Shown piece by piece: positions 1-20,983 of a DNA stretch of 21,072 bases; position 1 is the first letter of the stretch, and every line of letters begins with the position of its first letter. The notes beneath the pieces were generated by a model. That model was not told the origin of the DNA, did not search any database, and was given only the letters and a program-made list of their open reading frames with translations. A program made the translations under genes and the position numbers. The stretch is from a virus, in IMG/VR virus record IMGVR_UViG_3300005095_000050, positions 1-21,072 of that record; one strand, given 5' to 3'.

Positions 1-2378
1 GATTTTACTCTTTCTTCTATTGCGTTTATATTTAATTTATCTATTTTTACTTTACCTGTTTGTTCCATAGTAAAATAAGCAAACTCAGTGGGTTTTTGTT
101 TGAATTCATCTTTTATTGATTTAATTAGTTCTTTTGTGTATTCATTTGCTTTTTCTTTTATTTTATCTTTATTTTTGCTTATATGTCTTTCAACTAATCC
201 ATCTATGTCTTTTTTTGTTATTTTTGTTTTTGATTTAGTAAATTTAGCTTCGTATTGTTTCTTTTTAAATATTCTTGCTCTTTCTTCTACGGCTTCAGTT
301 ATTGAGTCTTTAACAGAACCAAGTTCATCTGTTTTACCTGTGAATATTGAATTTAGTTTTTTAACAAAATCAGTATATATTTCTTTTTTATTTATTTTTG
401 GTTCTACTGACGACTCACCTTTGTCTAGAGACGCTATAAACGATTTGTTTTTTTCGTCAAGATATGGAAAATCTTTGTCTAATACTTGAGATAATATATC
501 GCTTTCAAATTGATCATATTCTGTGCTTATATTTTCGATTAATGCTTCTTTGTTTTTTATTTTATCTACTTCTTTTAAAATATTGTTGTGAAGATCAAGA
601 ACGTATGCTGATTTAACTAACTTATCTTTATCTTCTATAGTTTTTGGTTTTTCGTTTAGATATTTATTTATAGTTTCATATGTATTTAATAGATCATCGT
701 TATCATATTTTGAATATTCTTTGTATAACTTTTTTAAATTACTGTTTTTGTTTAATTCTGATCTACTAATTTTTATATATCCATCTTTTAATAGTTCTTT
801 TGCATTATTTAGTTTATTTATATCTTTTTTTCTTAGTTTAGATTCAATTGATATTTTATTTGCAATTTTAGTAAATTCATTAGAACCAATGTGCTTGGTG
901 TTGATATCAGTTAAATGTTTGTCAAGTGATCTTGCAATAGTGCTTAAATTTGTGTTTTTACCAATGATTATTTTGTTTGGTTCTATTTTTAATTTATCTC
1001 CAAACTCAATATTGTAATTGTCTAATTTAGTATCTAATGTGTCTTCGAGAATTGTTTTTATTCTATTTGTATCTTTTTTAAAGATAGCATCTTTAAAATG
1101 CTTTGAGGTTATTTTTTTATCATATGCAGTTGGTTCTGTGTCAATATATTTAGGAGTTCCTCCAGCAAAATCAACCATATCTTTGTTATCGAAAGATTTC
1201 TTAATGTCGTTTAAAGCTTTTATATAATTTTCTCTTGTTACTTTTTCATCTCTGTATGCTTTCATAAAATCAGACAGTTCACCTTTTCCATATGTTGATT
1301 CAAATGTATTTATAATTCTATCCATATCATCTTTTGATTTAGAACCAAGTAATTCGTCAGAATAAGCAAAGAATTCATTTAAACCTTCGTCTTGTTTAGG
1401 TATTTTTGTTTTTGTATCTATGTTTTTATGTGTAAGCTCGTGAGATAGTATTTGTGATAATGACATACCATCATCAATTATATTATCTGGATTTATTCTT
1501 ATGTGCGCTTGTCCATTGTTGTCGTATGATACTGTTGCATATGATCTTAAATTTTCATCTATCGAAATTGAAGCAATGTTACCTGTGTTAAATTTTTCTG
1601 ATACTATGCTTTTTGCTTTTTCTGGATTGTGTTGAATTAATGAATATAGCTCCATCTCTTCATCTGGATGAAACATTGGTGGTTCTGAATATTTAATTTC
1701 TCCATTGTCGATATCAAGCATATCGACTTTTTTGCCTTTTATTCTGTCTTTAGTTTTGTTTATTTTTTCTTTTGTTTTAGATAGATCAAGTTTTGGTACT
1801 GTTACTTTATTTTTGACTCCATACAATGTTTTACCAGCTGATATTGATCCTCTTATGGCAATATCAGGTATTGCATTAAATGCAACTTGTTTAGCAAATT
1901 CTGATTTATCAACAGATACTGATCCATCTTCGTTTAATTCATAAGGTATTTCTCCTTTTGATATATCATATCCAGATTGACCTAATGATAATGCTGGTGT
2001 TTCTTTGGTAACAAATCCTGTAGTTTTTGATAGTAATTTATTTTCTATTTTATTTTCAACTACTTTTGCTACTTTACTTGATAACGATAAGCCTTTTGTG
2101 TATGGAATACCAAAAGATAGTGTATCAACTAATATTTCAGTTGGAGTAGAACCTTGAACAGCTTGATTTATTGTTTCTATTTCTTCTAACGCTCTTTGTT
2201 GAATTAGGTTAGCTTTGTTCTTATCTTTTATTAATGATGGCGCAAATAATATTGCAGTATTACCAGCAACGTTTCTTAAGAATGTATCTAAAGTATAATC
2301 GCTTGTTCCTATAGTTAAGATATTGTTTTGTTTGTATTGTTTGTCTTTTTGCCCAAGATATAATAATTTATCACCCAT
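1..2378 (-). CDS. Large internal virion protein with embedded zinc-metallopeptidase motif (3' end outside window)
   Basis: An uninterrupted minus-strand frame runs from ATG at 2378 to the window edge, giving at least 792 codons; the C-terminus is missing. AGGAAT lies just upstream of the ATG. The protein is Lys/Asp/Asn-rich and largely helical. The clear motif is HELTH at residues 313-317 (positions 1428-1442), followed about 17 residues later by EGLNEFFAYSDELL. This is the HExxH plus downstream Glu layout of zincin peptidases, and the second part resembles the ANxFAAELL element of ImmA/IrrE-like (M78) enzymes. It is the last gene of the run capsid, small virion proteins, coiled-coil protein. 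In podoviruses that position holds large ejected internal proteins, some with an enzymatic domain (T7 gp16 has a transglycosylase). I infer an ejected or virion-associated protein with a possible peptidase. The target is unknown, and a degenerate domain is possible. Confidence 0.8.
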   Translation of the reverse strand, partial: MGDKLLYLGQKDKQYKQNNILTIGTSDYTLDTFLRNVAGNTAILFAPSLIKDKNKANLIQQRALEEIETINQAVQGSTPTEILVDTLSFGIPYTKGLSLSSKVAKVVENKIENKLLSKTTGFVTKETPALSLGQSGYDISKGEIPYELNEDGSVSVDKSEFAKQVAFNAIPDIAIRGSISAGKTLYGVKNKVTVPKLDLSKTKEKINKTKDRIKGKKVDMLDIDNGEIKYSEPPMFHPDEEMELYSLIQHNPEKAKSIVSEKFNTGNIASISIDENLRSYATVSYDNNGQAHIRINPDNIIDDGMSLSQILSHELTHKNIDTKTKIPKQDEGLNEFFAYSDELLGSKSKDDMDRIINTFESTYGKGELSDFMKAYRDEKVTRENYIKALNDIKKSFDNKDMVDFAGGTPKYIDTEPTAYDKKITSKHFKDAIFKKDTNRIKTILEDTLDTKLDNYNIEFGDKLKIEPNKIIIGKNTNLSTIARSLDKHLTDINTKHIGSNEFTKIANKISIESKLRKKDINKLNNAKELLKDGYIKISRSELNKNSNLKKLYKEYSKYDNDDLLNTYETINKYLNEKPKTIEDKDKLVKSAYVLDLHNNILKEVDKIKNKEALIENISTEYDQFESDILSQVLDKDFPYLDEKNKSFIASLDKGESSVEPKINKKEIYTDFVKKLNSIFTGKTDELGSVKDSITEAVEERARIFKKKQYEAKFTKSKTKITKKDIDGLVERHISKNKDKIKEKANEYTKELIKSIKDEFKQKPTEFAYFTMEQTGKVKIDKLNINAIEERVK

Positions 2379-2386
2379 ATTTATTC

Positions 2387-4291
2387 CTACTTGTTATCTT
2401 TTAAGATCTTAGAAAGGGTAAACAACGACATTAGAGTATAGTCAGTTATTGCTTCATCTTTTGTTTTATATCCTAGCCTTTTATAATTTTTAGATAGGAA
2501 TCTGTATACTTCGTTTGTTACTGCGTTTGGATTTATTGTTTTTTGTTTTAAGAATTTAGAGCCAATTTGTGATTTTAAAAATTCTGAATTTATGTATGTT
2601 AATTTATTAGAAAAATCATCAAACATTTTATTGTTTATTATTTGTAGTTGTTTTAAAGCGTATTTATCACCTTTTGATGCTTTTTCTTGCAAATTAACTA
2701 ATGTTTTATACTTGTATCCTTGTGGTAGGTGCTTTTCTATAGAATAAATAATATTTCTTGCATCTCTATCACCACTCTTAAACGATTCATATAAACTATT
2801 GTCTATTGGATCAAATCTGTCAGTTGTTATAGAACCAATGAATGGTAAATAAAACCCATTTTTAAATGATTCTCTAGATATATTCTCAGCTTTATCAACA
2901 TTGTTTTCAAATCCAAAAAATTTTTTTATCTTATTTCCTATAACAGTAAATAATCCTCTATTATCGTTAAGATAAGAACCAACTGAGAATGACAATGATA
3001 ATTCTGGATTGGTTCTAGATATTTCATCTAACGCTTTAACTTGATTATCTGAAAATTTATCAATGAAAGGAAGTTTTTTAACGAAATGAATAAACCAATT
3101 TTCACCTATTAAATTATCAGGATCTACTGTATTTGTTACTAGACTTGGTTCTTTTGAGCCAAGAGTTTTTCTGTAGTCATTTAAATTTGTTTTAAGATTA
3201 TTTGTTCTTTTTTTTAAAATATCGTAGTCTTCTTTTAAGCCAGATATTTCTAACATTTTACTGAAGTTTTTATATTTTTTAGATAAAGAATCTATTGTTT
3301 TTACTTTTTCATTATCTGGTATGTTCATATCTAAAATATATTTAATTTTATCTCTAAACTCATTAGAGTATTTATTTATAATATCTTGATCTATGTTTTG
3401 TAGTTTTCCATATTTTAGAACGTTTGATAGTTTATCGCTAAACTCAATGTCGTTACTGTTTATTAAACCAAGTAGATTATTTATTTTGTTTTCTTGATAT
3501 TTATCATTGTATGCTAATGTTTGAGTGTATGGTAATGTTTGTTCAACTTCAGGATTGTCAACGATCTTGTTTTCTGGTTTTAATAAAGTATCTATATTTA
3601 ATGAATAATCATCTATATTTTTTTTTATGCTATTGCTTCTAATGTTTGATTGATTGTATTGTTGCTGATCGTATTGATCAATATCATATTGTCCTTCAGA
3701 TAAGCCAAACTCTCTTTCAAAGTTTCTTTCTAATCTTATGTATTCAGGATTTACTATTTTTTTCGTTAAGCCTGTTGATGAGTCAATAACTTCAATAGTT
3801 TTAGGTGCATTTTTTAATGCTATTTTATATGCTTCAAATTTATCATTTTTATTATTGTTATTTAGCTCAAGATATAATTTGTTTTTATTAAAATTCAATT
3901 TTTCTTTGCTTATATCAAGCATACCAAGCTTGTATGCTTTATTTAGCTGATATTCTTTATTAAAATGGTCATCAGCTTGTTTTAATTTTAAATAATCAAA
4001 ATTAAGACTATCCTCAAATTGTTTTTGTTTCTGTGATAATTGTTTCTCTCTAAAACTTTCATCTGAAATAATTTTCCTAGCTTGCAATTCTAACTGTTTA
4101 TTCTGTAATAATTGTTGTTGTCTTCTAGCTTCTGCTTGTTCTAATAGTGAAATCATTTTCATAGATAAAGATGCTGATGAATTAAATAAATTAGATGCTA
4201 TATTCATAAACTGACTAGCTGTTCTTGCAGTATTAGATGAAGCTGAAGCACCTTGTGAGAGAGTTTGAATATATGGATTCTGTATTGGCAT
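2387..4291 (-). CDS. Coiled-coil internal virion (ejection-type) protein
   Basis: This is a 634-residue protein starting MPIQNPYIQ. The ATG at 4291 shares bases with the TAA of the preceding gene (TAATG) and has AAAGG six bases before it. The longer in-frame start at 4306 has no such site. Residues 1-45 are Ala/Ser-rich. Residues 45-115 are dense in Gln, Lys and Glu and predicted to be a long coiled coil. The rest is a polar, Lys/Asn/Asp-rich helical protein with no catalytic motif I can recognise. Size, composition and position after the capsid genes match internal core or ejection proteins of podoviruses. It is tightly coupled to the 117-residue protein upstream and the peptidase-containing protein downstream, so the three may assemble together. 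The assignment rests on context and composition, not on a recognised family signature. Confidence 0.78.
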   Translation of the reverse strand: MPIQNPYIQTLSQGASASSNTARTASQFMNIASNLFNSSASLSMKMISLLEQAEARRQQQLLQNKQLELQARKIISDESFREKQLSQKQKQFEDSLNFDYLKLKQADDHFNKEYQLNKAYKLGMLDISKEKLNFNKNKLYLELNNNNKNDKFEAYKIALKNAPKTIEVIDSSTGLTKKIVNPEYIRLERNFEREFGLSEGQYDIDQYDQQQYNQSNIRSNSIKKNIDDYSLNIDTLLKPENKIVDNPEVEQTLPYTQTLAYNDKYQENKINNLLGLINSNDIEFSDKLSNVLKYGKLQNIDQDIINKYSNEFRDKIKYILDMNIPDNEKVKTIDSLSKKYKNFSKMLEISGLKEDYDILKKRTNNLKTNLNDYRKTLGSKEPSLVTNTVDPDNLIGENWFIHFVKKLPFIDKFSDNQVKALDEISRTNPELSLSFSVGSYLNDNRGLFTVIGNKIKKFFGFENNVDKAENISRESFKNGFYLPFIGSITTDRFDPIDNSLYESFKSGDRDARNIIYSIEKHLPQGYKYKTLVNLQEKASKGDKYALKQLQIINNKMFDDFSNKLTYINSEFLKSQIGSKFLKQKTINPNAVTNEVYRFLSKNYKRLGYKTKDEAITDYTLMSLFTLSKILKDNK

Positions 4292-4644
4292 TACTCGCCT
4301 TTCCATTCGCTAGTTATTTTTTCTCTTAATGATTTTATTCTGTCTAATTCTTCTTTTGTTTTGCTCCATTGATCTTTAGCTAGTGACAGCTGATCTTTAG
4401 CTAATCCATAATTTTTAAATCCTAAATATAAAGAACCAAGAGTTCCTAAAGTTGATATTCCGTAGTTTAACGGTTTAAGGTATTGTTCTGTAAAGTTTTG
4501 CATAGTTTGTTGGTTCTGAACGTAAGATTGATTTGATAGTGTTTTCATTGTGTAGTCAACTTGTGGCTCTATATATCCTGTATTATTTTTAATCATATTA
4601 TTGTCTACATATTTGAAATTTCCAAGAGTTCCTATTTCATACAT
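4291..4644 (-). CDS. Small internal virion protein
   Basis: A 117-residue protein with AAAGGA five bases before the ATG. The N-terminal half is polar and Asn/Gln-rich. A Gly-rich, weakly hydrophobic stretch follows at about residues 62-78 (ISTLGTLGSLYLGF), then a charged helix with the near-repeat LAKDQLSLAKDQW and a Lys/Glu-rich end. A Gly/Leu segment followed by an LAKDQL-type helix is common in small proteins beside capsid genes of podoviruses, where related proteins are internal or ejection components. Its TAA overlaps the next gene's ATG, which implies translational coupling to the 634-residue coiled-coil protein. No enzyme motif is visible. A small membrane-active ejection protein is my best inference; the family is not firmly recognised. 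Confidence 0.75.
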   Translation of the reverse strand: MYEIGTLGNFKYVDNNMIKNNTGYIEPQVDYTMKTLSNQSYVQNQQTMQNFTEQYLKPLNYGISTLGTLGSLYLGFKNYGLAKDQLSLAKDQWSKTKEELDRIKSLREKITSEWKGE

Positions 4645-4678
4645 TGGAGTCCTTTTGAGGTAATAAATTATCTAAATC

Positions 4679-4702
4679 ATAGAACCACAAAGTTGGTTCT
4701 AT
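4679..4702. terminator. Hairpin built from a motif pair, between two virion genes
   Basis: ATAGAACCA (4679-4687) and TGGTTCTAT (4694-4702) form a perfect 9-bp stem with a 6-nt loop. It lies 3' of the 103-residue gene on the transcribed strand. The sequence after it is A/T-rich but has no clean U run, so it would be a weak terminator or an RNA end-protecting hairpin. The arms are copies of the octamer spread through the window, one exact (4693-4700) and one with a last-base change (4681-4688). A protein-binding inverted site is therefore an alternative. Confidence 0.4.
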
Positions 4703-4705: not shown

Positions 4706-5017
4706 TTAAACAATTTTTACGAAATATTTAGGAACATACTTTACTTTTGCATTTTGAATATCGTTATTTTTAGCAATTCTGTTTGCTTTTTCTTGTGGTA
4801 TTTGTAATTGTTCCATAATTGCTCTAGGGTCTAGTTTAGAGTTAACTTTTCTTGGTTCTTTTTGTCTTTCTAGAGCTTTTAAATCCATTTGAGAAATAAT
4901 CACAGGAATATCGTACGGAATAACTTTACCATTTGCTTTAGCGTATCCTTCTTTATCTGCGTTATCTGTAGCTGGCTTAACAATAACTTTTACTTTATCA
5001 GATTTGGCTTTTGCCAT
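4706..5017 (-). CDS. Small basic protein downstream of the major capsid gene
   Basis: A 103-residue, Lys-rich protein with AAGGAG upstream of its ATG. The first 20 residues are mostly Lys, Ala, Val and Asp (MAKAKSDKVKVIVKP). The middle has the segment VIPYDIPVIISQMD and the C-terminus ends in YVPKYFVKIV. No catalytic motif is visible. It is flanked by two hairpins, one behind the capsid gene and one behind its own stop codon. A small basic protein directly after the capsid gene could be a head decoration, completion or DNA-associated virion protein, but I cannot place it in a family. Confidence 0.7.
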   Translation of the reverse strand: MAKAKSDKVKVIVKPATDNADKEGYAKANGKVIPYDIPVIISQMDLKALERQKEPRKVNSKLDPRAIMEQLQIPQEKANRIAKNNDIQNAKVKYVPKYFVKIV

Positions 5018-5080: not shown

Positions 5081-6154
5081 CTAGTCGATAGTGAAATTGA
5101 ATTTGATCACTCCAAGTCTTTCTGGATAAAGAACTTTTGCCCCAATCCAAGATTTCCAACCAATTGTTCCAAATCTATTAAGAGCATCTGATTTATCAGA
5201 GCCACCAATTGGTTTAACGATAACCTGAACTCTTTTTTTACCTCTTAAAGGAATTTGTGCTGTATGATCTTTACCCATGATTAGCATTTCACCTGTGTAT
5301 AGACCATCAGTATCTGTTGCACTAATTGACATGTTTTCATTTTCAATAACTCTAACGTCACCAATCATTCCAATTTCACCATCAAGTGGTTTTACTGAAC
5401 CTGTTGCATATTTTTCTAGTGGAATGAATTTCTCATTGTCTTTTAATTTGTCTCCAGCAAGTGGGTTAACGATACCAATGTATCTTGACCATACAGGAAT
5501 TGTTCCATACTTAGGTGTAGCACTAATAATGCTATTTACATATTTTGCTCCAGATAGCCTTAGTTGTAATCCGATCTTTCTAATTGCTTTTGCAAAAGAT
5601 TCGCTTTCGATTTTGTCTTCTGGATCAGTGTTTCCTGTGATATCCTGTAAATGTCCAGCTCCGTTAACCATAAAATCTCTGTAGAATCCATCAATTACTA
5701 AAGATGCAACATCACTGTACTGTTTAACGTTCTCACTAATTGTGTACATATCGTGAAATAACTCAAGCTCTTCAGTGTATGTCATCCATGCACCAATTGG
5801 GATAACTTCAGCTTCAGTTTTTACAACTTGCATTGCTCCCTTTTCATCTCCTGAGCTACCCTCACTTAAAATAAAATCTTGATATGCATTCTCTGGAATT
5901 AGAGTAGCAATACCTTCTCCATCAGTATTGCCTGTGTAATTTTTGTAAATATCATTAACAAACATTAAGTCTTTCATTGGAATCCATCTTTTGAATTCAA
6001 TCTTTTGTGAATTCCTTTGTGGAAGTTCTTTTCTTAAAGTAGCAAATCTATCGAATACTGTTTTTTGAGCCAATTCAGCTGTCATTAATTTATCAACATA
6101 TGCTTGTTGAGCATCGCTTAACCCTGAACCTTGTGTTCCGTATGTAACACCCAT
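5081..6154 (-). CDS. Major capsid protein, N4 gp56-like family
   Basis: A 357-residue protein that builds the icosahedral shell. The N-terminus has the typical pattern of the N4 gp56-type major capsid family: TYGTQGSGLSDAQQAYVDKL, then LRKELPQRNSQKIEFKRW (a Ser/Gln-Lys-x-Ile-Glu-Phe-x-Arg element at about residues 45-62). The C-terminal half carries GKDHTAQIPLRG and RFGTIGWKSWIGAKVL, also usual in the family. Length is normal. AAGGAG stands five bases before the ATG, and the gene ends in a double stop TAGTAG followed by a strong hairpin. Codon use is less extreme and more C-rich than in the neighbours, as expected for a highly expressed gene. It sits directly after the scaffold gene. I find no exact copy of the AGAACCAA octamer inside it. 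Confidence 0.93.
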   Translation of the reverse strand: MGVTYGTQGSGLSDAQQAYVDKLMTAELAQKTVFDRFATLRKELPQRNSQKIEFKRWIPMKDLMFVNDIYKNYTGNTDGEGIATLIPENAYQDFILSEGSSGDEKGAMQVVKTEAEVIPIGAWMTYTEELELFHDMYTISENVKQYSDVASLVIDGFYRDFMVNGAGHLQDITGNTDPEDKIESESFAKAIRKIGLQLRLSGAKYVNSIISATPKYGTIPVWSRYIGIVNPLAGDKLKDNEKFIPLEKYATGSVKPLDGEIGMIGDVRVIENENMSISATDTDGLYTGEMLIMGKDHTAQIPLRGKKRVQVIVKPIGGSDKSDALNRFGTIGWKSWIGAKVLYPERLGVIKFNFTID

Positions 6155-6170: not shown

Positions 6171-7220
6171 TTATTTTTTAAACAATTCTTTTTCAAGCTC
6201 GTTTAAGTCTTTGTCCCATAATTCATCATATGAGACTTTCTTTCTTTTAATTTGCCTTTTAGGTTTTCTTTTTATATTTTTTTGCATTGGTTCTGTTAGT
6301 TGTCTTTGTGATAATAAATCATTTGCTATTGCTCTGTAAAGATCAAGCCACTTTACATGAGCATATCTATCCATTGATTTTAGTTTAATCAATTCAGGAA
6401 ATACTCTGTCAAATTCGCCTGTTTGAATAGAACCAACGAAGTCTGCAAATAATTCAGCTTCAGCTATTTCTCGTTTGAATTCGTCTGGAACTTGGTTGTT
6501 CCAAACACTTACCACCAATCCAGCTAATTCTGGATCTCTTTGTTGAATATCGTTAAAAACTTCTTCAATGTGGTTTTGTTGTTTTACTTCTGGTTTGTAA
6601 TCAATCTCATCATCAAATAAATCATCAGTTGGTTCTAAATTGAATTTTTCTTGAAGATATTTAATTGCTTCAGATTTTCCATTCTTAGCATCAGCTAAAG
6701 CAACAATATCTTCTTCAGTTAAACCAGCATTCTCTATTAGATCAACAATTCTTCTGTGAGGTTTGATCTTACTCATTTTAAATGAGTAATCTAATCCTTT
6801 TTGAGCAAGCTCAATTAACTCATCCTCATTGTTGACCCATATTTCTTTACCTCTGTATTTTAAAGGCTTTGTAACCACTATTCTTTTTTTATCTTCATTA
6901 GAACCAATAGTGTCATCTTCTTCGTCAGTCTCATCAGTTGGTTCTTCGTATTGCTCGTATGTTTCTTCTATTTCTTCGTTTTCTTCTTCTGTTTCATTTT
7001 CCTCTGTTTCTTCTTGCATGCCATCTTCTTCTCCTGTGTTTTTGCTATTTAAGTCTTCAAGTGATATTTCGTCATCATTCCAAATATCATCATAAGATAA
7101 ATTTTCTTCTGTATTGTTTTCTTCGACCTCTGTTTGAGTGTCGTTAGCATCTTCAAGTTCATTAAACTCTTGTGCTTCCATCTCTTCGTTTGATGGAGTA
7201 GCCAAAGTTTTGTCTTCCAT
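6171..7220 (-). CDS. Scaffold (head assembly) protein, highly acidic
   Basis: A 349-residue protein between portal and capsid genes. Residues 1-110 are extremely Glu/Asp-rich, the middle is a mixed helical region, and residues 312-327 are a basic cluster (KNIKRKPKRQIKRKK). An acidic protein with a short basic C-terminal end, located just upstream of the coat gene, is the signature of phage scaffolding proteins, whose basic tail binds the coat protein. A short element is repeated at the two ends: LSYDDIW at residues 41-47 and VSYDELW at 329-335, each followed by an acidic/Leu helix. No protease motif is visible. The ATG overlaps the stop of the 73-residue gene as TAATG. Five exact AGAACCAA octamers lie within it. 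Confidence 0.82.
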   Translation of the reverse strand: MEDKTLATPSNEEMEAQEFNELEDANDTQTEVEENNTEENLSYDDIWNDDEISLEDLNSKNTGEEDGMQEETEENETEEENEEIEETYEQYEEPTDETDEEDDTIGSNEDKKRIVVTKPLKYRGKEIWVNNEDELIELAQKGLDYSFKMSKIKPHRRIVDLIENAGLTEEDIVALADAKNGKSEAIKYLQEKFNLEPTDDLFDDEIDYKPEVKQQNHIEEVFNDIQQRDPELAGLVVSVWNNQVPDEFKREIAEAELFADFVGSIQTGEFDRVFPELIKLKSMDRYAHVKWLDLYRAIANDLLSQRQLTEPMQKNIKRKPKRQIKRKKVSYDELWDKDLNELEKELFKK

Positions 7221-7441
7221 TAATTCTCCTTGTCTTTTTCGTTAATTATATCATATTCGCTTATTTTAGCGTCTACAAAGCGTTTAAATGATTGAATTGC
7301 CTTAAGTTCATCAATTACCTTTTGGTTATCTAAATCTTCGTTATAAATCATCTTAAGAGCTCTTTCAACTGTGTATTCTTCAACAAAAGAACCAAACGCT
7401 TTGTTTTCCAACAAATCTATAATATAATGCTTATCATCCAT
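7220..7441 (-). CDS. Small hypothetical protein between portal and scaffold
   Basis: A 73-residue acidic protein with AAGGAG upstream of its ATG. It overlaps the portal gene by 8 bases at its start and the scaffold gene by 1 base at its end. The sequence is predicted helical, with motifs such as LLENKAFGSFVEEYTVERAL, and ends in a charged tail. I do not recognise it. Position and coupling imply a role in head assembly, perhaps an assembly chaperone. Confidence 0.72.
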   Translation of the reverse strand: MDDKHYIIDLLENKAFGSFVEEYTVERALKMIYNEDLDNQKVIDELKAIQSFKRFVDAKISEYDIINEKDKEN

Positions 7442-9479
7442 TAAGATCTCCTTTGTTTAACTCATCTAGAGTTATTCCATGTTTTTCTAATTTTTCTAGT
7501 AGTTCTGCATATTTTTTTGCTATGTCAGCATCTGTGCTTAATACTTCTTTTTGAGCTTTAACTTCAGTCATTTTTGTTCTAGCTAGAGCATTTTGAGCCA
7601 ACGCTTGTTCTTTTATTGATTTAGCTTCTTTTTCTTTAGCTTCAGCTTGTTGTTTAATTAATTCTATCTGTTTAGCTTGTTGTTGTATAGGATCAACTTG
7701 ATGTTTATAATTTTCAATCTCATCAGCAATTGAAGGAAATTCCATTAACTCAAATAATTTTGCCAATAATTTCTGAACTATTTCAGGAGGACATGCTCCT
7801 ACTTGAACCAACTGTGATGCTTGTTGCATTAGCATATTAATTTGGTTTATTCTTGACTCTTTTAATCCGTCTGTTCCTACTACTATTTTTATATCGTAAT
7901 CAACATCTGATTTGTTGAACATATCATTTATTTCTTTAAATATAAGCAATCTTGCTTGTGCTTGTATGTCTTCTGGGAGTTCTTGTACTCTGTACTTATC
8001 TTCAAGTTTAGCCTGTTCTTTAGCTTTTACCTCAGGAATGTTTATTCCTGTTATCTTTTCTATCTCTTCATCAGACAAATACTTCATAGCCATCTTTAAC
8101 CACATAACCAAGATGTCTTTTATGTATTCTTGTAATTGAATATTAAACACTAACAATCTTACCTGCGCTTGGCTCATCATCATAGAAAAGTTTGAAGCAG
8201 GAGAGTTTAGCTCTTTTCCAGACATACCAGATATAGTTCTGTTTACTCCAGTTAGTCCCTCAGCTTGGTTCTCTACTATTTGTAGCATATTGTAAACAAC
8301 AGATGGTACTTCGTTAAATTTACCATCATAGATAACTTGATTTATTGGAAGTCCTATTGAGTCTATCTCAACAAATGGTTTACCCTCAAGTAATCTTTTC
8401 ATGTTAACGCTATCAAGTGATCCTTTTCTAATAAATTTTGTCCCATTATTTGACATACTCATATTATCAACAACACCCCTAATTATTGAAGTTATAAATT
8501 TTTGTTCATCTGAGATCATTTCAGCTAAACTGTCTCCCCATATGTTAAATTCGTTTTCGAATAGATTTACTTCTCTAAATGGAAAAAAATCAAAATCAAA
8601 AGTGTCTTTTCCAATTATCTCTATATCGCTTGAAGAATATGGTAAGAAGTAAACTATTTTTATTTTACCTTTTTCTTTATACCAATATTCGTAGACATAA
8701 AACTCACTATCTTCCTTAGATTTATCTTCAGTATCCAAATATTCTATGTTTCTTGTGTCATGAATATTGTCAGCTACTTCAGTTGAAGTGCTATTATTGT
8801 TAAAAAATTTTTCAACTTTCCTTTTGTCGTATTTTTCATCACTTAACAATTCATCTTTTGTTGTATTGTATCTTACTATTATATATCTACTACTTTGTAT
8901 GCTTGAGGCTAATGGATCAGTAAAAACGTCTTCATTTGGCAATATTTCAGCATTTGGTCTGTTTTTTGTTACATTCTCTATGACTATGTAGTATTTTCCG
9001 TCTTTTTCAATTGTTTTAAATTTAGAACCAACAGTTTGAAGTTGAACATATTGATTATATGATATTTCTTGTTTGTTTTGAGTTTTTTGTTTTTCCCAAA
9101 AGACTCTTGCTATTGCTGTTCCCTCTTTTGTAACAATATTTGAAGTTGTGTTTATAAATTTAATTCTTTCGAATTCTTTGTTCCAGAAATAATTGAGTAA
9201 TTTTTCATCTATATTTGCTTTGATAGTATCAAATTTAGTTTTTGGATATATCTTACATATCTTATCACCTGTAATGAATGGTTTTACTAAATTAGCTGAT
9301 AATACTTTTGATTGTTTTTTTATCAATTTCCATACTATCTTACTTCTTCCTTCAACTTCATTACCGTATGGTTCACCATCATGTTCTGACAACCATTTAG
9401 ATATTTTATCGTTTATGCCTGATTTGAATTCATCTGATATTTTAAAATCGTCATATATTTGTTTTGCTAATTCGCTCAT
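7434..9479 (-). CDS. Portal protein
   Basis: A 681-residue protein expected to form the dodecameric ring at the capsid vertex through which DNA is packaged and ejected. The N-terminus (FKSGINDKISKWLSEHDGEP) leads into a helical wing region. The centre contains EGLTGVNRTISGMSGKEL (about residues 408-425) and SPASNFSMMMSQAQVRL, the conserved Gly/Ser-Gln region typical of P22-like and other podoviral portals. The last 70 residues are an Ala/Gln/Lys/Glu-rich coiled coil, comparable to the C-terminal barrel of long portals. AAGGAG is correctly spaced before the ATG. It sits directly upstream of the scaffold and capsid genes. I make the portal call from length, pattern and context; the exact subfamily is uncertain. 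Confidence 0.88.
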   Translation of the reverse strand: MSELAKQIYDDFKISDEFKSGINDKISKWLSEHDGEPYGNEVEGRSKIVWKLIKKQSKVLSANLVKPFITGDKICKIYPKTKFDTIKANIDEKLLNYFWNKEFERIKFINTTSNIVTKEGTAIARVFWEKQKTQNKQEISYNQYVQLQTVGSKFKTIEKDGKYYIVIENVTKNRPNAEILPNEDVFTDPLASSIQSSRYIIVRYNTTKDELLSDEKYDKRKVEKFFNNNSTSTEVADNIHDTRNIEYLDTEDKSKEDSEFYVYEYWYKEKGKIKIVYFLPYSSSDIEIIGKDTFDFDFFPFREVNLFENEFNIWGDSLAEMISDEQKFITSIIRGVVDNMSMSNNGTKFIRKGSLDSVNMKRLLEGKPFVEIDSIGLPINQVIYDGKFNEVPSVVYNMLQIVENQAEGLTGVNRTISGMSGKELNSPASNFSMMMSQAQVRLLVFNIQLQEYIKDILVMWLKMAMKYLSDEEIEKITGINIPEVKAKEQAKLEDKYRVQELPEDIQAQARLLIFKEINDMFNKSDVDYDIKIVVGTDGLKESRINQINMLMQQASQLVQVGACPPEIVQKLLAKLFELMEFPSIADEIENYKHQVDPIQQQAKQIELIKQQAEAKEKEAKSIKEQALAQNALARTKMTEVKAQKEVLSTDADIAKKYAELLEKLEKHGITLDELNKGDLNG

Positions 9480-11956: not shown

Positions 11957-12374
11957 TACTATTCTTTATGTCAGTATATAAAGATGATAATTCATCGTTA
12001 GCTATAATGCTAGGCTTATCTTCAAGTATTCCTGAGCTAAACATCATAGCCCAAGCATTCATTTGAGAATCAAATAGTTTGAATCTAAAGTTATCATCAA
12101 ATCCTTTTGTTTGTCTGTCTAATAACTCTTGTTGTTTTATTTGTGTATTTTTCTGTTCAAGAACCAACTCAGCTTGGTTCTGTTTTACAATAGTGTCTTG
12201 TTCATTTAATGGAGCTTGAAAAGCTAATTGCAAACATTGAGACATCAAATTAGCATATACATTAGCATAGTCGCTTCCTTTTAATCTTCCAAGATTGTAT
12301 TGTTCGTCTAAATCTTCTTTTACTTTTTCTGTTAATTCATCATATATTGTTTTTATTTGTTCAATGTCATACAT
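11949..12374 (-). CDS. Hypothetical structural-module protein (Gln-rich helical)
   Basis: A 141-residue helical protein with AAAGGA six bases before its ATG. The N-terminal half is acidic (IYDELTEKVKEDLDEQY). Then comes LMSQCLQLAFQAP, a Gln/Glu-rich coiled coil (residues 60-90, with KQNQAEL and QIKQQELLDRQ), and the segment GFDDNFRFKLFDSQMNAWAMMF. The pattern of a Gln-rich helix followed by RQ-x-GFDDN and a Gln-x-NAW element occurs in short proteins of phage tail modules, but I know no function for them. It contains two exact AGAACCAA octamers (one per orientation) only 14 bases apart at 12160-12181, read in two different frames. Confidence 0.72.
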   Translation of the reverse strand: MYDIEQIKTIYDELTEKVKEDLDEQYNLGRLKGSDYANVYANLMSQCLQLAFQAPLNEQDTIVKQNQAELVLEQKNTQIKQQELLDRQTKGFDDNFRFKLFDSQMNAWAMMFSSGILEDKPSIIANDELSSLYTDIKNSIG

Positions 12375-14029: not shown

Positions 14030-15670
14030 TTATCCATCACTCACTTTTAAGATTCCACCATCATTCCAAATAGCACCAGCTACATTTGGATCACTTGTTG
14101 GTAAATCAGTAAAGATATAATTGCCACCATTTTTATAAAACTTAATTCCACCAGCATTAGATGCGCTACCATCTTTATGGTATAGATTTATTCCTGAACC
14201 ACCTGTAGCAAGATCAGTCCATGCTCTAATGTTCAAGATGCCATAAGTTGTATCATAATTAATGCACTTATTGAAATCATTAGAACCAGTTGTTGGATCA
14301 TACATTATTCCAATATAGTTCCCAGCAATTCTTAAATTACCATAGTCTGTTAAGCTTGCAACATGTTTTGTTTCTAATGAGCTTTCATTCCATTGCCAAA
14401 CAGTAAACCAAGAACCATATCCTATGAATTGATCAATATCAGATGATTTATAATCACTGTATGGAATATCTTCTTTGATTAATATTGCATTTGTTCCATC
14501 ATCTAATTTAACCAAATATTCTTCATAAATATCATCGTTATTTTTTAAGTGCATGCCAATATAAATATCGTTTCCATCAAAAACTATACCCTCTGGCTCT
14601 ATATATTTGTAATTACTTAAATTAATGAAATTAGGCATAAATTTAATTACATTTACAAGACTTCCTTCATCTGTGTACACTCTAATCTCTCTATTTCTAA
14701 TTTGTGAGCTATCATAAGAACCAAACAGCATATAGATAAGTCCATTTTTGTAAGCAACACCTTGGAAGTCATAATATGAAGCATAATCTGTGTTTCTTGT
14801 AACTATAAATTCTTTTTCAAAGTTATTGTAATCACCATCAATAATTGTTTGAATATTATTGTATATCCTAACCAATTTTCTTCTTGTAGTCTTTATATCA
14901 CTAAATACGATTATTGTCTTTTTAGTTTCATTATCAACATATGGTAAAGCGTGATACCATATTGTTTCTTTTTCGTTGTTGCTGTCATAATCATCAATTA
15001 CCCTGTATAGATTAACTTCAGGTGTATCTGAATCATCCCATTTAATTATACTTATATGTCTACCAAAATTTGGGTAGACAGTAATATCTTCGTATTTATA
15101 GTTTTTGATAACTATCTCATTGTCTTCGTTTGGAGTCCCACCAGATGATACAAATTGCAATTGACCAGTACTGTCTTTGAAGTAAGAAAGTCCTTGATGA
15201 GCCACATTGTCTAAATCATTAGTTTTTAGTATTAAATTTCCATTTAAGTCAAATTTATAAATTCTACCTTTTTCTCCTGGTGAATAGTTATTAATGCCAT
15301 TGTCACTATCTTTTACATTCCTGTGTGCATATAAATACCCATCAACTACAGCAATTCCTTGTAAATTTCCTTTTCCATATTCACTTTCTACATCAAACTT
15401 ACATATCATTTTATGTTTACTTAAATCAAACCACCTTTTTCCTCTAACTAGGTTAGTATCTTTAGCAACAATCTTTGGATTTTCATTGTTTTCATTGACA
15501 ACAATATTTGTAACTTCATCTTTTTTTGGATATTCATTTAATGTATTATTTAGCTTTTCATCTGTTGTAATATCTTCAATATTTATAGTTTTATTGCCAT
15601 CAGTTCTATAATTACATTCAATTGTTGCAATATTCCCATTTTCATTTTCAAGCTTCAATCTACTAGCCAT
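14030..15670 (-). CDS. Tail fibre with beta-propeller-like domain
   Basis: A 546-residue protein starting MASRLKLENENG. The ATG at 15670 is five bases after AAGGAG, the spacing used by the capsid and tailspike genes; the ATG at 15673 would be only two bases away. The N-terminus is a short fibre-type attachment region. From about residue 100 there are repeated blade-like units, such as LQGIAVVDGYLYAH, GRIYKFDLNGNLI, FQGVAYKNGLIYMLFGSY and EPEGIVFDGNDIYIGMHL. This pattern fits the P68 RBP/TagC-like beta-propeller of phage receptor-binding proteins. The C-terminus (LPTSDPNVAGAIW, GILKVSDG) is shared with the adjacent tailspike. One exact octamer occurs, at 14717. Fibre identity is well supported; the propeller is inferred from pattern. 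Confidence 0.8.
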   Translation of the reverse strand: MASRLKLENENGNIATIECNYRTDGNKTINIEDITTDEKLNNTLNEYPKKDEVTNIVVNENNENPKIVAKDTNLVRGKRWFDLSKHKMICKFDVESEYGKGNLQGIAVVDGYLYAHRNVKDSDNGINNYSPGEKGRIYKFDLNGNLILKTNDLDNVAHQGLSYFKDSTGQLQFVSSGGTPNEDNEIVIKNYKYEDITVYPNFGRHISIIKWDDSDTPEVNLYRVIDDYDSNNEKETIWYHALPYVDNETKKTIIVFSDIKTTRRKLVRIYNNIQTIIDGDYNNFEKEFIVTRNTDYASYYDFQGVAYKNGLIYMLFGSYDSSQIRNREIRVYTDEGSLVNVIKFMPNFINLSNYKYIEPEGIVFDGNDIYIGMHLKNNDDIYEEYLVKLDDGTNAILIKEDIPYSDYKSSDIDQFIGYGSWFTVWQWNESSLETKHVASLTDYGNLRIAGNYIGIMYDPTTGSNDFNKCINYDTTYGILNIRAWTDLATGGSGINLYHKDGSASNAGGIKFYKNGGNYIFTDLPTSDPNVAGAIWNDGGILKVSDG

Positions 15671-16149: not shown

Positions 16150-16859
16150 AGCCAAGCCTTTTTAAATTGTTTAGTATCATAAAATGTAGTCGTTGACATT
16201 AATGATTTTTTTTCATTTTCATATTTCTTAAGAAGTAAAGCTGTAGTGTCCTGATCAACTGACGACGAATATGACATTGTTGTGTAGTACTTTATACCCT
16301 CTATTAAAGCATTTTCTATATACGCTATTTCGTCATAACTAATGTTATCTATATCAGGAATAACACTACATGTAGCAATTGATTGAATAATCTCTTCATC
16401 TCTTGGCATAAAAGAGAAATCAGTAACTCTGTATATATTCGAAGTAAGGTATTCAAATTTATTGAATGCACTTTTAAGTTTGCTAGTTATTTGATCTTCA
16501 ATCAACACATCGTTAACAGACAATAATATTTCATTTATTTCAGAACCAACCGATTCAGTAGTTATTGCTACATTTGGTATGATGGATTCGTCATATGTTT
16601 TTAGCCAATTTAGTATATCGTCTTCAGTCATAGATTCTATTGTTACAGAATCAAGATCTGTTCTAACTCTATTGTTTAACTTTAGTATTAAAGAAAAATT
16701 GTAATCTGTAAAATCTCTTGTTATAGAAAAAGCTAATAGTCTTTTAAAGAAATGAGTAGTCTTTGCTATATCGTTTATAACAATAGATATTAAATTAGTT
16801 AAATCATCATCGCTTATAGACATATCTCTAACAAAAAATTTATATTTTTGTATGTCCAT
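16146..16859 (-). CDS. Putative head-tail adaptor or tail protein
   Basis: A 237-residue acidic, Ile/Asp/Ser-rich protein with AAGGA six bases before its ATG. It begins MDIQKYKFFVRDMSISDDDL and is predicted largely helical, ending in IENALIEGIKYYTTMSYSSSV with a terminal helix (LLLKKYENEKKSLMS). Location right after the large terminase and before the fibres, and an all-helical plan with a C-terminal helix, fit an adaptor that docks on the portal. I do not see a diagnostic family motif, so this is inference from context. It is coupled by an ATGA overlap to the 149-residue fibre-attachment protein. Confidence 0.65.
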   Translation of the reverse strand: MDIQKYKFFVRDMSISDDDLTNLISIVINDIAKTTHFFKRLLAFSITRDFTDYNFSLILKLNNRVRTDLDSVTIESMTEDDILNWLKTYDESIIPNVAITTESVGSEINEILLSVNDVLIEDQITSKLKSAFNKFEYLTSNIYRVTDFSFMPRDEEIIQSIATCSVIPDIDNISYDEIAYIENALIEGIKYYTTMSYSSSVDQDTTALLLKKYENEKKSLMSTTTFYDTKQFKKAWL

Positions 16860-16894: not shown

Positions 16895-18391
16895 TTAAAA
16901 CACATATGGGTTATTGTAGTTTTGATAAAACGATAAATCACTGTCATAATCTATTGGTTCATTATATGATATATCAATAAGTGTTAGCTGAGATATACTG
17001 TCAACTAAGTCGTCATGCTTTGCTAATATTGATTCGTTTGTTATTAACTCCATCTCATGCTTTAATTCATTTACAAAATCTTTTATATGTGTTTTTGGTA
17101 ACCACAATTTACCAAGCTCAACTATAGGTTGTAGAGCTTTTATAACAGATAGTTTAGCTTTGGTTCTACTAACCATCTGTAAATTAAAATATTTGCCTCT
17201 TCTGTTCATTTCATTGTATATAAACGTCTTCATTGATAATTGAAAAGCAACTTTTTCAAGAACCACAGCTGATGGATTCCATCTATCAACAAACTCAAAT
17301 ATCTTATCTATTGTCTTGTCTGGTTTTATCCTTCCAAAAAATCCATCAACTAGATACCAATTTCTATTGCTGTCTATTCCAACGACAGATATTGCTGTAT
17401 AATCTGCATATGATTTTTCTGATACAGCCAAATCTACTGATATGTAGTAGTTCATTTTTCTCAGTTTATCTTTTATATCATCTATATTATAATAGTTTAT
17501 ATTATCAAGATTAAACAGTAAATCATCCTTAGGTGTAACTTCAAGCATATATTCCTGGTAAAATGATCTTTCTCTACCTTTATCTTTTAGATCTTCATAA
17601 ACGCTTCTAACATATTCTTTAGTGAATCTGTCTTCCCACGAAGTAACTAAATTGTTCCAATCATCTGGAGGGAATTCTTCAGCTACAGGCAATTGTAGCG
17701 TTACCCATTGATCTGAATTTACTAACTCTAATAATAAGCTATCTTCGTGTATAGGAGTTCCAATGAAAATGAACTCAAATCTATTTGGATTAATCGCTGG
17801 AGTAACTACATCATAGAACCAATTTTTTAATTTATTCCTAGCCTCTTTAGTCTGTTGTTTTGTTTCATTTTCAATATCATCAAGAATTACTATATTAGGT
17901 CTTTTATTCATTATCTTAGTACCTCTCATACTTTGCCCAGAACCACGACCCTTAATATAGAACATTTTGTTAACTTCTTTATTATATATATAAAGAGTTG
18001 GATCGTCATCTAATCTTTTTTTTCTTATTTCAAGTACTTCAGATAGCTTAGAGCTTTCTATCATTGAGGCTATAGTTTCTATAGTAGCCTGAACCATTGA
18101 TACGACGTCCTGTATAATAAGTATATACTCAAAGTCCCCAAAGTTTGGCTTCTTTCCTAATTGTAACCATTCAAGTATTAAATGTATTATCTTTGTTGAC
18201 TTACCAAGTCCTCTATGGCATTCCAATACTTTTTTTCTATGTTTTGATAATACATGGTCTACTAACATAAAATGAGCTTGTGCGGGCTTGTTTTCTTCTT
18301 CAAAGTATGTATCGAACCAAAGGAAGTGTTTTATTGTGTCTTTGTTTTTTGGAACATATGGTTCGTCATATCTAGGTCTGCTTATTATCAC
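16895..18391 (-). CDS. terL: Terminase large subunit
   Basis: The DNA-packaging ATPase and nuclease, 498 residues from GTG at 18391. GAGGA lies eight bases before that GTG; the TTG at 18397 would be only two bases from it. Motifs: Walker A CHRGLGKST at residues 58-66, Walker B NIVILDDIE at 166-174 with two acidic residues, coupling motif FIGTP at 209-213, and the RNase H-like nuclease with Asp320 (ISVDLAVS), Glu379 (VVLEKVAF) and HDDLVD at 459-464. All expected catalytic positions are present and length is normal. It follows the lysis genes, with a 59-residue ORF overlapping its first 20 bases. It cuts concatemers and drives DNA through the portal, presumably recruited by the small subunit at 19813-20454. 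Confidence 0.95.
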   Translation of the reverse strand: MIISRPRYDEPYVPKNKDTIKHFLWFDTYFEEENKPAQAHFMLVDHVLSKHRKKVLECHRGLGKSTKIIHLILEWLQLGKKPNFGDFEYILIIQDVVSMVQATIETIASMIESSKLSEVLEIRKKRLDDDPTLYIYNKEVNKMFYIKGRGSGQSMRGTKIMNKRPNIVILDDIENETKQQTKEARNKLKNWFYDVVTPAINPNRFEFIFIGTPIHEDSLLLELVNSDQWVTLQLPVAEEFPPDDWNNLVTSWEDRFTKEYVRSVYEDLKDKGRERSFYQEYMLEVTPKDDLLFNLDNINYYNIDDIKDKLRKMNYYISVDLAVSEKSYADYTAISVVGIDSNRNWYLVDGFFGRIKPDKTIDKIFEFVDRWNPSAVVLEKVAFQLSMKTFIYNEMNRRGKYFNLQMVSRTKAKLSVIKALQPIVELGKLWLPKTHIKDFVNELKHEMELITNESILAKHDDLVDSISQLTLIDISYNEPIDYDSDLSFYQNYNNPYVF

Positions 18392-18551
18392 TAGCAAATT
18401 CCTCGTTATATTGTTTTATCTGATTGTTTAAGAATTCGTTTATTTCTTTGCATTTACTTAGTTCTTCTTTTAAATCTCTAAGATCGTTTATCATTTTTAT
18501 AAAATCTTCTAACGATAAAAGCACTTGATTATTCTTTATTTTCGTTTCCAT
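18372..18551 (-). CDS. Small coiled-coil protein before the large terminase
   Basis: A 59-residue ORF beginning MEDTKI-like as METKIKNNQVLLSLEDFIKM, with AAGG six bases before ATG 18551. It overlaps the o-spanin gene by 23 bases and the large terminase start by 20. Residues 13-50 form a regular charged helix with Leu/Ile at heptad spacing (LRDLKEELSKCKEINEFL), so a coiled-coil dimer is likely. Good ribosome site, overlaps with both neighbours and lack of any other gene in this stretch argue that it is real. Function unknown; it could assist terminase or be a lysis accessory. Confidence 0.65.
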   Translation of the reverse strand: METKIKNNQVLLSLEDFIKMINDLRDLKEELSKCKEINEFLNNQIKQYNEEFASDNKQT

Positions 18552-18726
18552 TTATTACCTTGTATTTTATTATCGTTGGTTCTTTGTTTGTGTAGTTGTA
18601 CTCGTATGTTTGCAGTTTAGGACACTTTTGCTTTATGTATATATACTTTACTTTCCGTTCGCACCCATTAATAAACAATAGTATGATAACCGATAGAAGT
18701 ATTAATGTCAGTTTTGTTTGTTTCAT
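18529..18726 (-). CDS. Outer-membrane spanin lipoprotein (Rz1-like)
   Basis: A 65-residue protein from ATG 18726; a TTG at 18732 is possible but less likely. The N-terminus is a lipoprotein signal: MKQTK, a hydrophobic run LTLILLSVIILLF, then INGC with the lipidated Cys at residue 22. The mature part is about 44 residues (KVKYIYIKQKCPKLQTYEYN), and VKxxYIKxxCPxLxxY is a usual o-spanin pattern. Its first 59 bases are nested out of frame within the end of the i-spanin gene, the classical Rz/Rz1 overlapped layout. Together with the i-spanin it spans the periplasm and fuses inner and outer membranes at the last step of lysis. It shows that the host has an outer membrane. Confidence 0.88.
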   Translation of the reverse strand: MKQTKLTLILLSVIILLFINGCERKVKYIYIKQKCPKLQTYEYNYTNKEPTIIKYKVINGNENKE

Positions 18727-19448: not shown

Positions 19449-19810
19449 TTTTTGCTTTCTTGATTGTGATATCTAAGTATCTCTTCTTTTAGTGTTTCTG
19501 AACCAATTTTCTCAGCTATAGCAAGCTCCATAAGATAAATCCCTCTAGGACCTAAATGCCCTAATATAGAACCAACTCCAGCCGATAAAATAATATTATC
19601 ACTATATCCATAAACCAACAAAAATGCAGGCAAACCAACGCTAACTGACCCAACTATGTCTATAATAAGAAAAATTATTACTTTCCTTAAAGAATACCCA
19701 TCTTTCTTTCTTCTAATAAAAGAACCAAGTCCTGAAGCCAATAATCCAGCAAAAACAATTATATATTCAGTTAAACTTAATTGTGTTTTCATAGTGTCAT
19801 TCCTATCCAT
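19445..19810 (-). CDS. Holin
   Basis: A 121-residue protein with three likely membrane segments: about residues 13-33 (TEYIIVFAGLLASGLGSFI), 43-70 (VIIFLIIDIVGSVSVGLPAF and following) and 73-95 (IILSAGVGSILGHLGPRGI), then a charged C-terminal helix. The pattern of a loop RRKKDGYS, three helices and a GxxGxLGxxG element resembles holins of the LydA/class I type. It lies at the head of a holin, peptide, endolysin, spanin cassette. Two in-frame ATGs have plausible ribosome sites: 19810 (AAAGGA, nine bases away) and 19792 (AGGA, eight bases away). Long and short forms, differing by the charged MDRNDT, may both be made. It permeabilises the inner membrane to release the endolysin. Confidence 0.82.
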   Translation of the reverse strand: MDRNDTMKTQLSLTEYIIVFAGLLASGLGSFIRRKKDGYSLRKVIIFLIIDIVGSVSVGLPAFLLVYGYSDNIILSAGVGSILGHLGPRGIYLMELAIAEKIGSETLKEEILRYHNQESKK

Positions 19811-19812: not shown

Positions 19813-20454
19813 TTATTTTTCCTTTGCTACAAGCTCTATAATTTTATCAGCACTAACGCCTTGTAGCTTACTTGCTATTTTATCAAGTTTATCGTTTATC
19901 TCTGTTATATCTGAATTATTTCTAAGATCAATGTTTACCTCTATGCCTTTATCGTCTTGAGGTTTTCTTGTCTCATTCAAAAATATCTCTACATACTTGG
20001 CTCTGTCTCTTTCTGACATTTTATCAGAAAAGATCTTCTTTGTTACAAGCTCCAATACTTTTATTCTCTCTAATGCAAACATTGTGTAAGTAGAAGTAGT
20101 AAGAAGAGCAACTATTGATTTATAAATCTTTGAATTCTCTAATCTCTTTGCTTTAATCTCAATAGATGACTTCGATAATTCATCACCTTCATTTTTGTTA
20201 ACTCCCCATTCTCTAGCTTTGTTTGGATCAGTAACTACGCACATTTCAGGAAAAGCATACTTAAAACTCTCAACCCTTCCTCTTCTCTCTATAAACCTCT
20301 TCCTAACGTATAATACAGTTTTGATTATTTTATGATAATCATCAGAACCAATATCTGAAGCAAGACTAAGTATTTCCGCTGGTTCTATTTCATCAATTAA
20401 TCCAGCTTCTTTGACAACAGATGATATTAATTCCAACTTCTCTTTTAGAGCCAA
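19813..20454 (-). CDS. Probable terminase small subunit
   Basis: A 213-residue helical protein. The start is a TTG at 20454 with AAGGA seven bases upstream; the next Met is about residue 71, so TTG is the only reasonable start. It overlaps the upstream gene by 10 bases. Residues 50-71 (VRKRFIERRGRVESFKYAFPEM) resemble the helix-turn-helix-adjacent part of small terminases (R..A...AfPe). Residues 126-162 (FALERIKVLELVTKKIFSDK, then MSERDRAKYVEIFLNE) follow the RI.vL..i......DR.kA.e.fl.et pattern typical of that family. The C-terminus is a coiled coil suited to ring assembly. Placement ahead of lysis and terL parallels T7-like genomes, where lysis genes also mix with terminase genes. It probably recognises the packaging site. 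Confidence 0.62.
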   Translation of the reverse strand: MALKEKLELISSVVKEAGLIDEIEPAEILSLASDIGSDDYHKIIKTVLYVRKRFIERRGRVESFKYAFPEMCVVTDPNKAREWGVNKNEGDELSKSSIEIKAKRLENSKIYKSIVALLTTSTYTMFALERIKVLELVTKKIFSDKMSERDRAKYVEIFLNETRKPQDDKGIEVNIDLRNNSDITEINDKLDKIASKLQGVSADKIIELVAKEK

Positions 20455-20651
20455 CCTATAATCCTTTTAATCTTATAAACAAGTCTACTAATGTTTCTTT
20501 TTAAGAAATAGAACCAAGCAGTTAGCCTATACCATCTGATAGCAAACTTCAACACATCATCATTTGATGCCCCAACTTTATCTCTAATTGATCTTAATTG
20601 CTCAATAGTTTTCTTTTTAGCGGTAATGCTTAATTGATCTTCTCTTCCCAT
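20445..20651 (-). CDS. Small ribbon-helix-helix-like protein, first gene of the operon
   Basis: A 68-residue basic protein with AAGGA six bases before the ATG. Residues 6-47 (QLSITAKKKTIEQLRSIRDK, then VGASNDDVLKFAIRWY) have the layout of a ribbon-helix-helix DNA-binding domain: a short strand, helix, turn with Gly-Ala-Ser, then a second helix. The last 22 residues are aromatic and basic (WFYFLKRNISRLVYKIKRII), possibly a membrane-associating or dimer helix. It is the promoter-proximal gene, 36 bases from the -10 box of a strong promoter that overlaps an 18-bp palindrome. An autoregulator of the operon is therefore an attractive inference. It could instead be a packaging accessory of the adjacent small terminase. 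Confidence 0.65.
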   Translation of the reverse strand: MGREDQLSITAKKKTIEQLRSIRDKVGASNDDVLKFAIRWYRLTAWFYFLKRNISRLVYKIKRIIGWL

Positions 20652-20724: not shown

Positions 20725-20783
20725 TTTAGCTTTCCTGTGTTTGCACAATGTGTAGTTCTTTATTTTTTCATCCTTTTCTCTAC

Positions 20784-20810
20784 AAGAGGAGTTTAGCCCC
20801 TTCTCCTCTT
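20784..20810. other. Stem-loop in the non-coding right region
   Basis: AAGAGGAG (20784-20791) and CTCCTCTT (20803-20810) are perfect complements around an 11-nt loop that contains four C residues, unusual in this A/T-rich DNA. Neither strand has a U run after it, so it is not a standard intrinsic terminator. It may stop or protect the rightward transcript, or be a structural element of the control region. Confidence 0.5.
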
Positions 20811-20820
20811 ACTCAACCAC

Positions 20821-20880
20821 AAAAGAAAATAAGAAAAAGAAAAAGCAACATAAAAAGAAAAAGAACAAAAGAAAAGTATA
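20821..20880 (+). other. Purine-rich tract
   Basis: Nearly all bases on the plus strand are A or G over 55-60 bp, arranged as AAAAG/AAAAAGA runs broken by a few C and T. It lies between the stem-loop and the octamer cluster, with no ribosome site or gene. It could be an intrinsically curved or easily melted segment near an origin. No function is shown by the sequence itself. Confidence 0.5.
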
Positions 20881-20888
20881 TAAATATT

Positions 20889-20983
20889 AGAACCAACAAG
20901 TATTTATATAACTAATATATTCTCTCTGTTGGTTCTATACTATTGGTTCTAAATAATTAGAATAATATTTTTTATAGAACCAA
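20889..20983. repeat. Cluster of four AGAACCAA octamers in inverted pairs
   Basis: Exact copies lie at 20889 (plus), 20929 (minus), 20943 (minus) and 20976 (plus). The first two extend to an 11-bp inverted repeat, TAGAACCAACA (20888-20898) and TGTTGGTTCTA (20927-20937), separated by an A/T-rich 28-bp spacer. The outer copies are likewise inverted with extended AGAACCAACAA arms. This is the densest group in the window and lies outside any gene, beside a nearly pure A/T segment. Confidence 0.8.

Follow-up and report, generated by a model that had tools for sequence, protein, structure and literature searches.

A densely repeated octamer of N4-like phages as a candidate recognition word of a gp43-type primase

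The window analysed here is the whole 21,072-base stretch of IMG/VR virus record IMGVR_UViG_3300005095_000050, an incomplete linear virus record. It encodes a major head protein (phrog_1357, 5081..6154), a portal protein (phrog_1216, 7434..9479) and a large terminase (phrog_38, 16895..18397), all on the minus strand. These three genes are markers of the N4-like phages (Schitoviridae); the portal and terminase match those of N4, and the terminase assigns the phage to the N4-like podoviruses. It is a deep-branching N4-like phage. The commonest 8-mer of the window is AGAACCAA (reverse strand TTGGTTCT), with 40 exact copies, 23 on the plus and 17 on the minus strand. The copies were located by exact match and then placed in genes for their codon frames, and this recount bore out exactly the number, strands and coordinates given in an original prediction.

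Thirty-five copies lie in genes and five between genes. Eighteen fall in the Gly-Ser relation, all on the plus strand: 315..322, which is antisense to a Gly-Ser pair, 882..889, 1341..1348, 2831..2838, 2975..2982, 4432..4439, 6429..6436, 6900..6907, 7388..7395, 9024..9031 (in the portal gene), 10317..10324, 11669..11676, 11879..11886, 14717..14724, 16542..16549, 19568..19575 and 19721..19728 (both in a holin-like gene) and 20344..20351. Nine minus-strand copies stand in the Glu-Pro frame (398..405, 977..984, 1130..1137, 3145..3152, 4852..4859, 6287..6294, 6629..6636, 6938..6945 and 18576..18583). The remaining eight are shared among Arg-Thr (3009..3016 and, in the terminase gene, 17160..17167, both minus; the latter is retained in L009, L011, L012 and L015), Asn-Gln (4510..4517, 8265..8272 in the portal gene and 12174..12181, all minus), Leu-Val (12160..12167, plus) and Trp-Phe (17815..17822 in the terminase gene, retained in L011 and L012, and 20510..20517, both plus). 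The ten codon relations named in the original prediction were all correct. Its statement that all six relations are used holds as to their occurrence, but their use is uneven, with Gly-Ser and Glu-Pro dominating.

The base composition of the window is 12% G and 17% C, not the 14% each that had been supposed. Markov models of order 0, 2 and 3 gave chance counts for AGAACCAA of 0.83, 2.1 and 2.4, and the reversed word, used as a control, occurred 5 times. Each of the 24 single-base variants was found 0 to 7 times, which marks AGAACCAA as a sharp word. When synonymous codons were shuffled in the complete open reading frames (ORFs), with proteins and codon usage kept, 4.0 ± 1.8 copies were obtained as compared to the 33 observed. 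Markov models of order 5 and 6, proposed earlier as a check that could refute the enrichment, did return similar counts (29 and 38); however, this match is circular because AGAACCAA itself contributes its 6- and 7-mers. Among 40 control viral loci of at least 12 kb each, the best word reached a -log10 P of at most 9.3, as compared to 26 for 20 kb of the window.

The word is also enriched in relatives, which are contigs of uncertain completeness, so that gene absences among them are tentative. Those with 65-73% terminase identity carry it more densely than the window does, at 13 copies in 5.9 kb, 23 in 10.3 kb and 17 in 7.7 kb. Contigs G011 and G012 hold 114 copies in 42.9 kb and 111 in 33.4 kb, with 9 and 10 occurrences of the reversed control, and two contigs found by primase search, G437 and G439, hold 132 in 45 kb and 106 in 46 kb. 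No enrichment of AGAACCAA was found in G002, G003 and G014, whose terminases are about 50% identical to that of the window. Over 264 sites, the base at the ninth position was C in 53% and A in 8%, indicating that C is favoured and A avoided. A scan of viral contigs for three copies of the word was discarded, as it returned mainly tandem repeats in unrelated contigs.

Comparison of the relatives showed that the enrichment arises at the DNA level. With G011, G012 and the window pooled, the count in each of the six frames was 15 to 57 times that in codon-permuted genes. In a comparison of G011 with G437 at sites of conserved amino acids, 53 of 59 words were intact, against 33% of other 8-mers (Fisher P = 8e-20); between the window and G437 the corresponding figures were 7 of 8 and 25%. 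For Gly-Ser pairs compared between G011 and G012, the coding by the word was kept in 11 of 12 pairs and other coding in 2 of 17, while the dipeptide itself was equally conserved. Selection therefore acts on the word and not on the protein, and AGAACCAA is held by purifying selection. The word also distorts the proteomes of the phages carrying it; the most over-represented dipeptides of the G011 and G012 proteomes are Pro-Thr (2.8-2.9 fold), Glu-Pro (2.3) and Gly-Ser (2.3). An artefact of composition, codon usage or dipeptides might draw on the high-order Markov counts and on the two dominant frames, but the dipeptide excess follows the word, and the synonymous shuffle and the test of word retention have refuted such a reading. 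The earlier claims that the word is imposed at the DNA level, and that selection on proteins cannot account for the copies, were upheld.

Related words were found in other N4-like phages. GATCCAA (157 copies) accompanies AGAACCAA (49) in G441, (A/T)GAGCCAA occurs 85 + 46 times in 35 kb of G445, and TGTAGCAA occurs 65 times in 48 kb of G001; the short contigs L152 and L010 have a relaxed AGAACCA(A/C/G). The AGAACCAA, GATCCAA and (A/T)GAGCCAA types differ at positions 1 and 4 only and have in common G at position 2 and CAA at 6-8. We then surveyed 13 named phage genomes, mostly their first 50 kb and with ORFs called mechanically, and found sister words in a weaker pattern than in the AGAACCAA phages. 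GAACCAG is the top word of coliphage N4 (110 vs. 26 expected, 1e-29), Pseudomonas phage ZC08 (101 vs. 18 expected, 1e-32) and G7C. GAACCAA is the top word, or lies inside it, in Vibrio phi 1, Enterobacter EcP1, Alcaligenes QDWS595 and Achromobacter JWAlpha, and in Ruegeria DSS3phi2 it is modestly above the codon null. Of the Pseudomonas phages LIT1 and LUZ7, the first has AAGCCAA and the second CAAACCA, and pYD6-A has a weak AAACCAA; no enriched word of the GAACCA type was found in the VBP47 genome. Among the top-ranked papers of a literature search none dealt with AGAACCAA in phages, and among the papers searched none was found on over-represented motifs in Schitoviridae.

Several further words were seen during this survey. 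G001 (L340-L342, 48 kb) has, besides TGTAGCAA, the enriched related words TGTAACAA and GTTGCAAC, and its words are antisense-biased in genes, unlike those of the other phages. Alteromonas phage AD45-P1 (L390) is enriched in the different words AACTAGTG (22 vs. 1.7) and GAACTAG (38 vs. 7.6), possibly another code. Secondary words one base off the main word are TGACCCA in N4 (L377/L381; 43 vs. 10.7) and a word of CTGGCTC type in G7C (L387). The N4-like contig L024 contains a longer, promoter-like repeat around TACGTCCCA/CCCAAGAAC in 6-7 copies in 18 kb.

The orientation of the word differs between sub-groups. The original prediction had described a balanced orientation, which holds for the sub-group of the window, but ten classical genomes together showed a strand bias of 490:289 (P = 6e-13). 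In N4 the ratio was 31:18 where the genes lie on the plus strand and 38:23 in the other arm, whose genes lie on the minus strand. Because the bias runs the same way in both arms, it is independent of transcription direction.

The relatives point to Campylobacterota as hosts, as judged from gene similarity. The ThyX of G012 matched 55 phages, of which 54 were Campylobacter phages, and among solved structures it had only two matches, both ThyX entries and presumably those of Helicobacter pylori. Several of the source metagenomes are probably hydrothermal-vent samples. A terminase-based host search of genome contigs gave no match, and a terminase profile run against 397 Campylobacterota genomes found generic terminases only, the three matches inspected being without AGAACCAA. 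In the same 397 genomes, a sample of the presumed host phylum, AGAACCAA was at most about 2.6-fold above the reversed word. The density of TGTAGCAA in Campylobacterota did not exceed about 1 per 8 kb, as compared to 1 per 0.74 kb in G001; the reversed form, having a CG, is a poor control for it. A 50-kb stretch of E. coli K-12 contained 20 copies of GAACCA vs. 38 expected and 14 of Chi vs. 3.3; in 50 kb of coliphage N4 the counts were 153 vs. 60 for GAACCA and 4 vs. 2.3 for Chi. The word family tracks the phage lineage across hosts, which implies that its reader is encoded by the phage and not by the host.

Seven contigs carry the word and also span a replication region, and candidates for this reader were compared in these. 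The only non-structural genes present in all seven were a primase of 650-700 amino acids and a PD-(D/E)XK exonuclease. When 13 replication, transcription and accessory proteins of N4 were used as queries, the gp43 primase alone was matched in 7/7 contigs (E 1e-21 to 1e-32). No match to N4 DNA polymerase was found in any of the seven, RNA polymerases I and II and the virion RNA polymerase were matched in G441 only, and SSB and Sak4 were patchy. Primase identity was 65-100% with AGAACCAA, 52% with GATCCAA and about 30% with (A/T)GAGCCAA and TGTAGCAA; across replication modules, diverged primases go with diverged words. The N-terminus of the primase (residues 1-351) is an MCM-like AAA+ domain (Z about 18 to MCM), and at the level of sequence the motifs IDxD and SH are conserved and 8 of 11 C-termini match PriCT_1. 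Three other candidates were set aside: a RepL/winged-helix protein of G001 and G011 was not found in the word-bearing G012, the virion RNA polymerase and RNA polymerases I/II were not found in most word-bearing relatives, and both terminase and portal occur in relatives without the word. Contigs L233-L235, L236-L237 and L365-L370 keep an N4-type primase, and an N4-type DNA polymerase was not detected in them; such phages may replicate with the primase itself or with the polymerase of the host.

We propose that AGAACCAA is a phage-encoded replication recognition word, most likely the template start site of the gp43-type primase, a reading to which we give an even chance. The original prediction had listed a replication protein among its candidates, a suggestion that these results uphold, and had not named priming, which we rank first among the explanations. 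In this mechanism gp43 would unwind or track DNA and start primers, or even synthesis, at the word on a single-stranded template, with its helix bundle (PriCT-1) as the part that meets the word. Selection would maintain an exact copy roughly every 300-500 bp, or every 600-1300 nt of each strand, and a start would then be at hand in any stretch of single-stranded DNA, on the lagging strand or in a recombination intermediate, a supply on the Okazaki scale. The mean per-strand gaps observed were 570-1284 nt in the AGAACCAA phages, 441-810 in G441/G445 and 1273-1749 in G001. The strand bias of the classical phages would then reflect the prevailing fork direction. We further consider, tentatively and with more doubt than belief, that the N4-like phages share a lineage-specific, drifting priming code of 7-8 nt, passing stepwise through GAACCAG, GAACCAA, AGAACCAA, GATCCAA, GAGCCAA and TGTAGCAA; its long exact word, in place of a trinucleotide, would be read by a gp43 helicase-primase, genome and proteins would have been rewritten to suit, and in the branch in which no N4-type DNA polymerase was detected gp43 might serve as replicase, as the enzyme of NrS-1 does.

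T7 and T4 primase sites are short polar template words that start lagging-strand primers and are needed on both strands. Unlike the words described here, they are trinucleotides, common by chance and not detectably enriched as octamers. A closer parallel is the prim-pol of NrS-1, a phage of hydrothermal-vent Epsilonproteobacteria, which uses the 8-nt template word 5'-TTTGGTTA-3' (PMC8718748, PMC7102993). Its reader is a phage-encoded AEP primase with a helix-bundle domain, as gp43 may be too, and TTTGGTTA and TTGGTTCT share TTGGTT; unlike in these phages, NrSPol also uses GTG. The helix bundle has been reported to bind the primase recognition site (PMC8718748), and PriCT-1 has been equated with the helical subdomain of the pRN1 prim-pol (PMC5862659). 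If the proposal is correct, a sequence code has been overlooked throughout a large and well-studied phage family, coliphage N4 included, and it shows what a replication initiator reads. The word would be a rare case of a replication signal that distorts proteins genome-wide, the words and enzymes would form a natural series for studying how primase specificity evolves, and the word would serve as a simple computational marker of N4-like phages.

Several observations weigh against priming by gp43. Primases usually read 3-4 nt. We infer both gp43 as the reader and single strands as the substrate. No similarity between gp43 and the NrS-1 prim-pol, or any sequence of a solved structure, was found to E 1 by phmmer and profile search, and the C-terminal half of the primase, modelled at pLDDT 80, had no Foldseek match at E ≤ 0.001. 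The fold search with the whole primase tested mainly the AAA+ part, so the absence of prim-pols there is uninformative. The NrS-1 genome has only two, origin-like copies of its 8-mer (PMC7102993), whereas about 110-130 are present here. VBP47 encodes a gp43 homologue and yet has no enriched word. The lack of gp43 in the word-less G002, G003 and G014 is uninformative because these relatives are fragments, and the window is itself a fragment that ends short of the primase region. The balanced strands in the sub-group of the window likewise count against the proposal.

Other readers of the word were weighed against the primase. The word might be a Chi-like signal run by the phage, in which the gp42-type PD-(D/E)XK exonuclease, the Sak4 annealase and SSB read it to steer resection or recombination. 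The exonuclease is as constant as the primase in the seven contigs and matches exonuclease families, and the word is polar, non-palindromic and, in classical members, strand-biased. However, the exonuclease is small and single-domain with no visible scanning module, N4 gp42 is scarcely detectable in most relatives, and Chi excess in phages has a median of 2-3 fold (PMC3784561) as compared to about 20-fold here; we regard this reading as unlikely. Chi of the host itself (GCTGGTGG and variants) resembles the word in being a polar octamer with genome-wide excess, strand-biased in some members and enriched in phages (PMC8022716, PMC3784561), and might protect phage DNA from RecBCD/AddAB or recruit host recombination. 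Chi is, however, recognised by an enzyme of the host, whose genome is enriched in it, whereas this word is lineage-specific to the phages. The low excess in Campylobacterota, the opposite patterns of E. coli and N4, the occurrence of the word family in phages of unrelated hosts, and the Sak4 recombinase that these phages carry themselves make a host Chi very improbable. Uptake sequences of Haemophilus and Neisseria are likewise dense, exact coding words imposed on proteins, sometimes in inverted pairs, but they belong to host genomes, and AGAACCAA is not strongly enriched in the sampled hosts. The resemblance to Chi and uptake sequences drawn in the original prediction is therefore unsupported as regards a host Chi or uptake function.

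Sites of a phage-encoded DNA-organising or packaging protein, acting in condensation, nucleoid formation or head filling, would suit a word that is dense genome-wide, on both strands and without fixed position relative to genes. Yet G002, G003 and G014 share the portal, the head protein and mostly the terminase and lack the word, and a structural role does not easily account for a strand bias that is unrelated to the direction of the genes, so that we find such sites distinctly improbable. Least credible of these readers is a system of modification, restriction or defence evasion (methylation, phosphorothioation or BREX). Type III and BREX sites are typically non-palindromic, as the word is, and GAAC and CCA, both inside the word, are phosphorothioation motifs. 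Phages normally avoid such sites, no methyltransferase is among the genes common to the word-bearing phages, and the specificity of the word tracks phage lineage and not host.

The intergenic copies include a four-copy cluster at 20889..20896 (+), 20929..20936 (-), 20943..20950 (-) and 20976..20983 (+). It lies in an AT-rich gap (20889-20983) adjoining small-terminase-like and gp69-like genes, and words are likewise clustered in the matching gaps of G011 (11448, 11549 and 11562; L233 11448-11569) and G012 (27990, 28001 and 28032; L237 10990-11039). This cluster may be a preferred replication start or control region. The fifth intergenic copy, 4693..4700 (-), and a near-word directly upstream of it together form an imperfect inverted repeat (4668-4702), and the copies at 12160 and 12174 form an inverted pair (12160-12181). 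Both repeats have arms of about 8 nt set 5-6 nt apart, and such pairs, of which the one at 4668-4702 lies between genes, have a hairpin- or terminator-like look.

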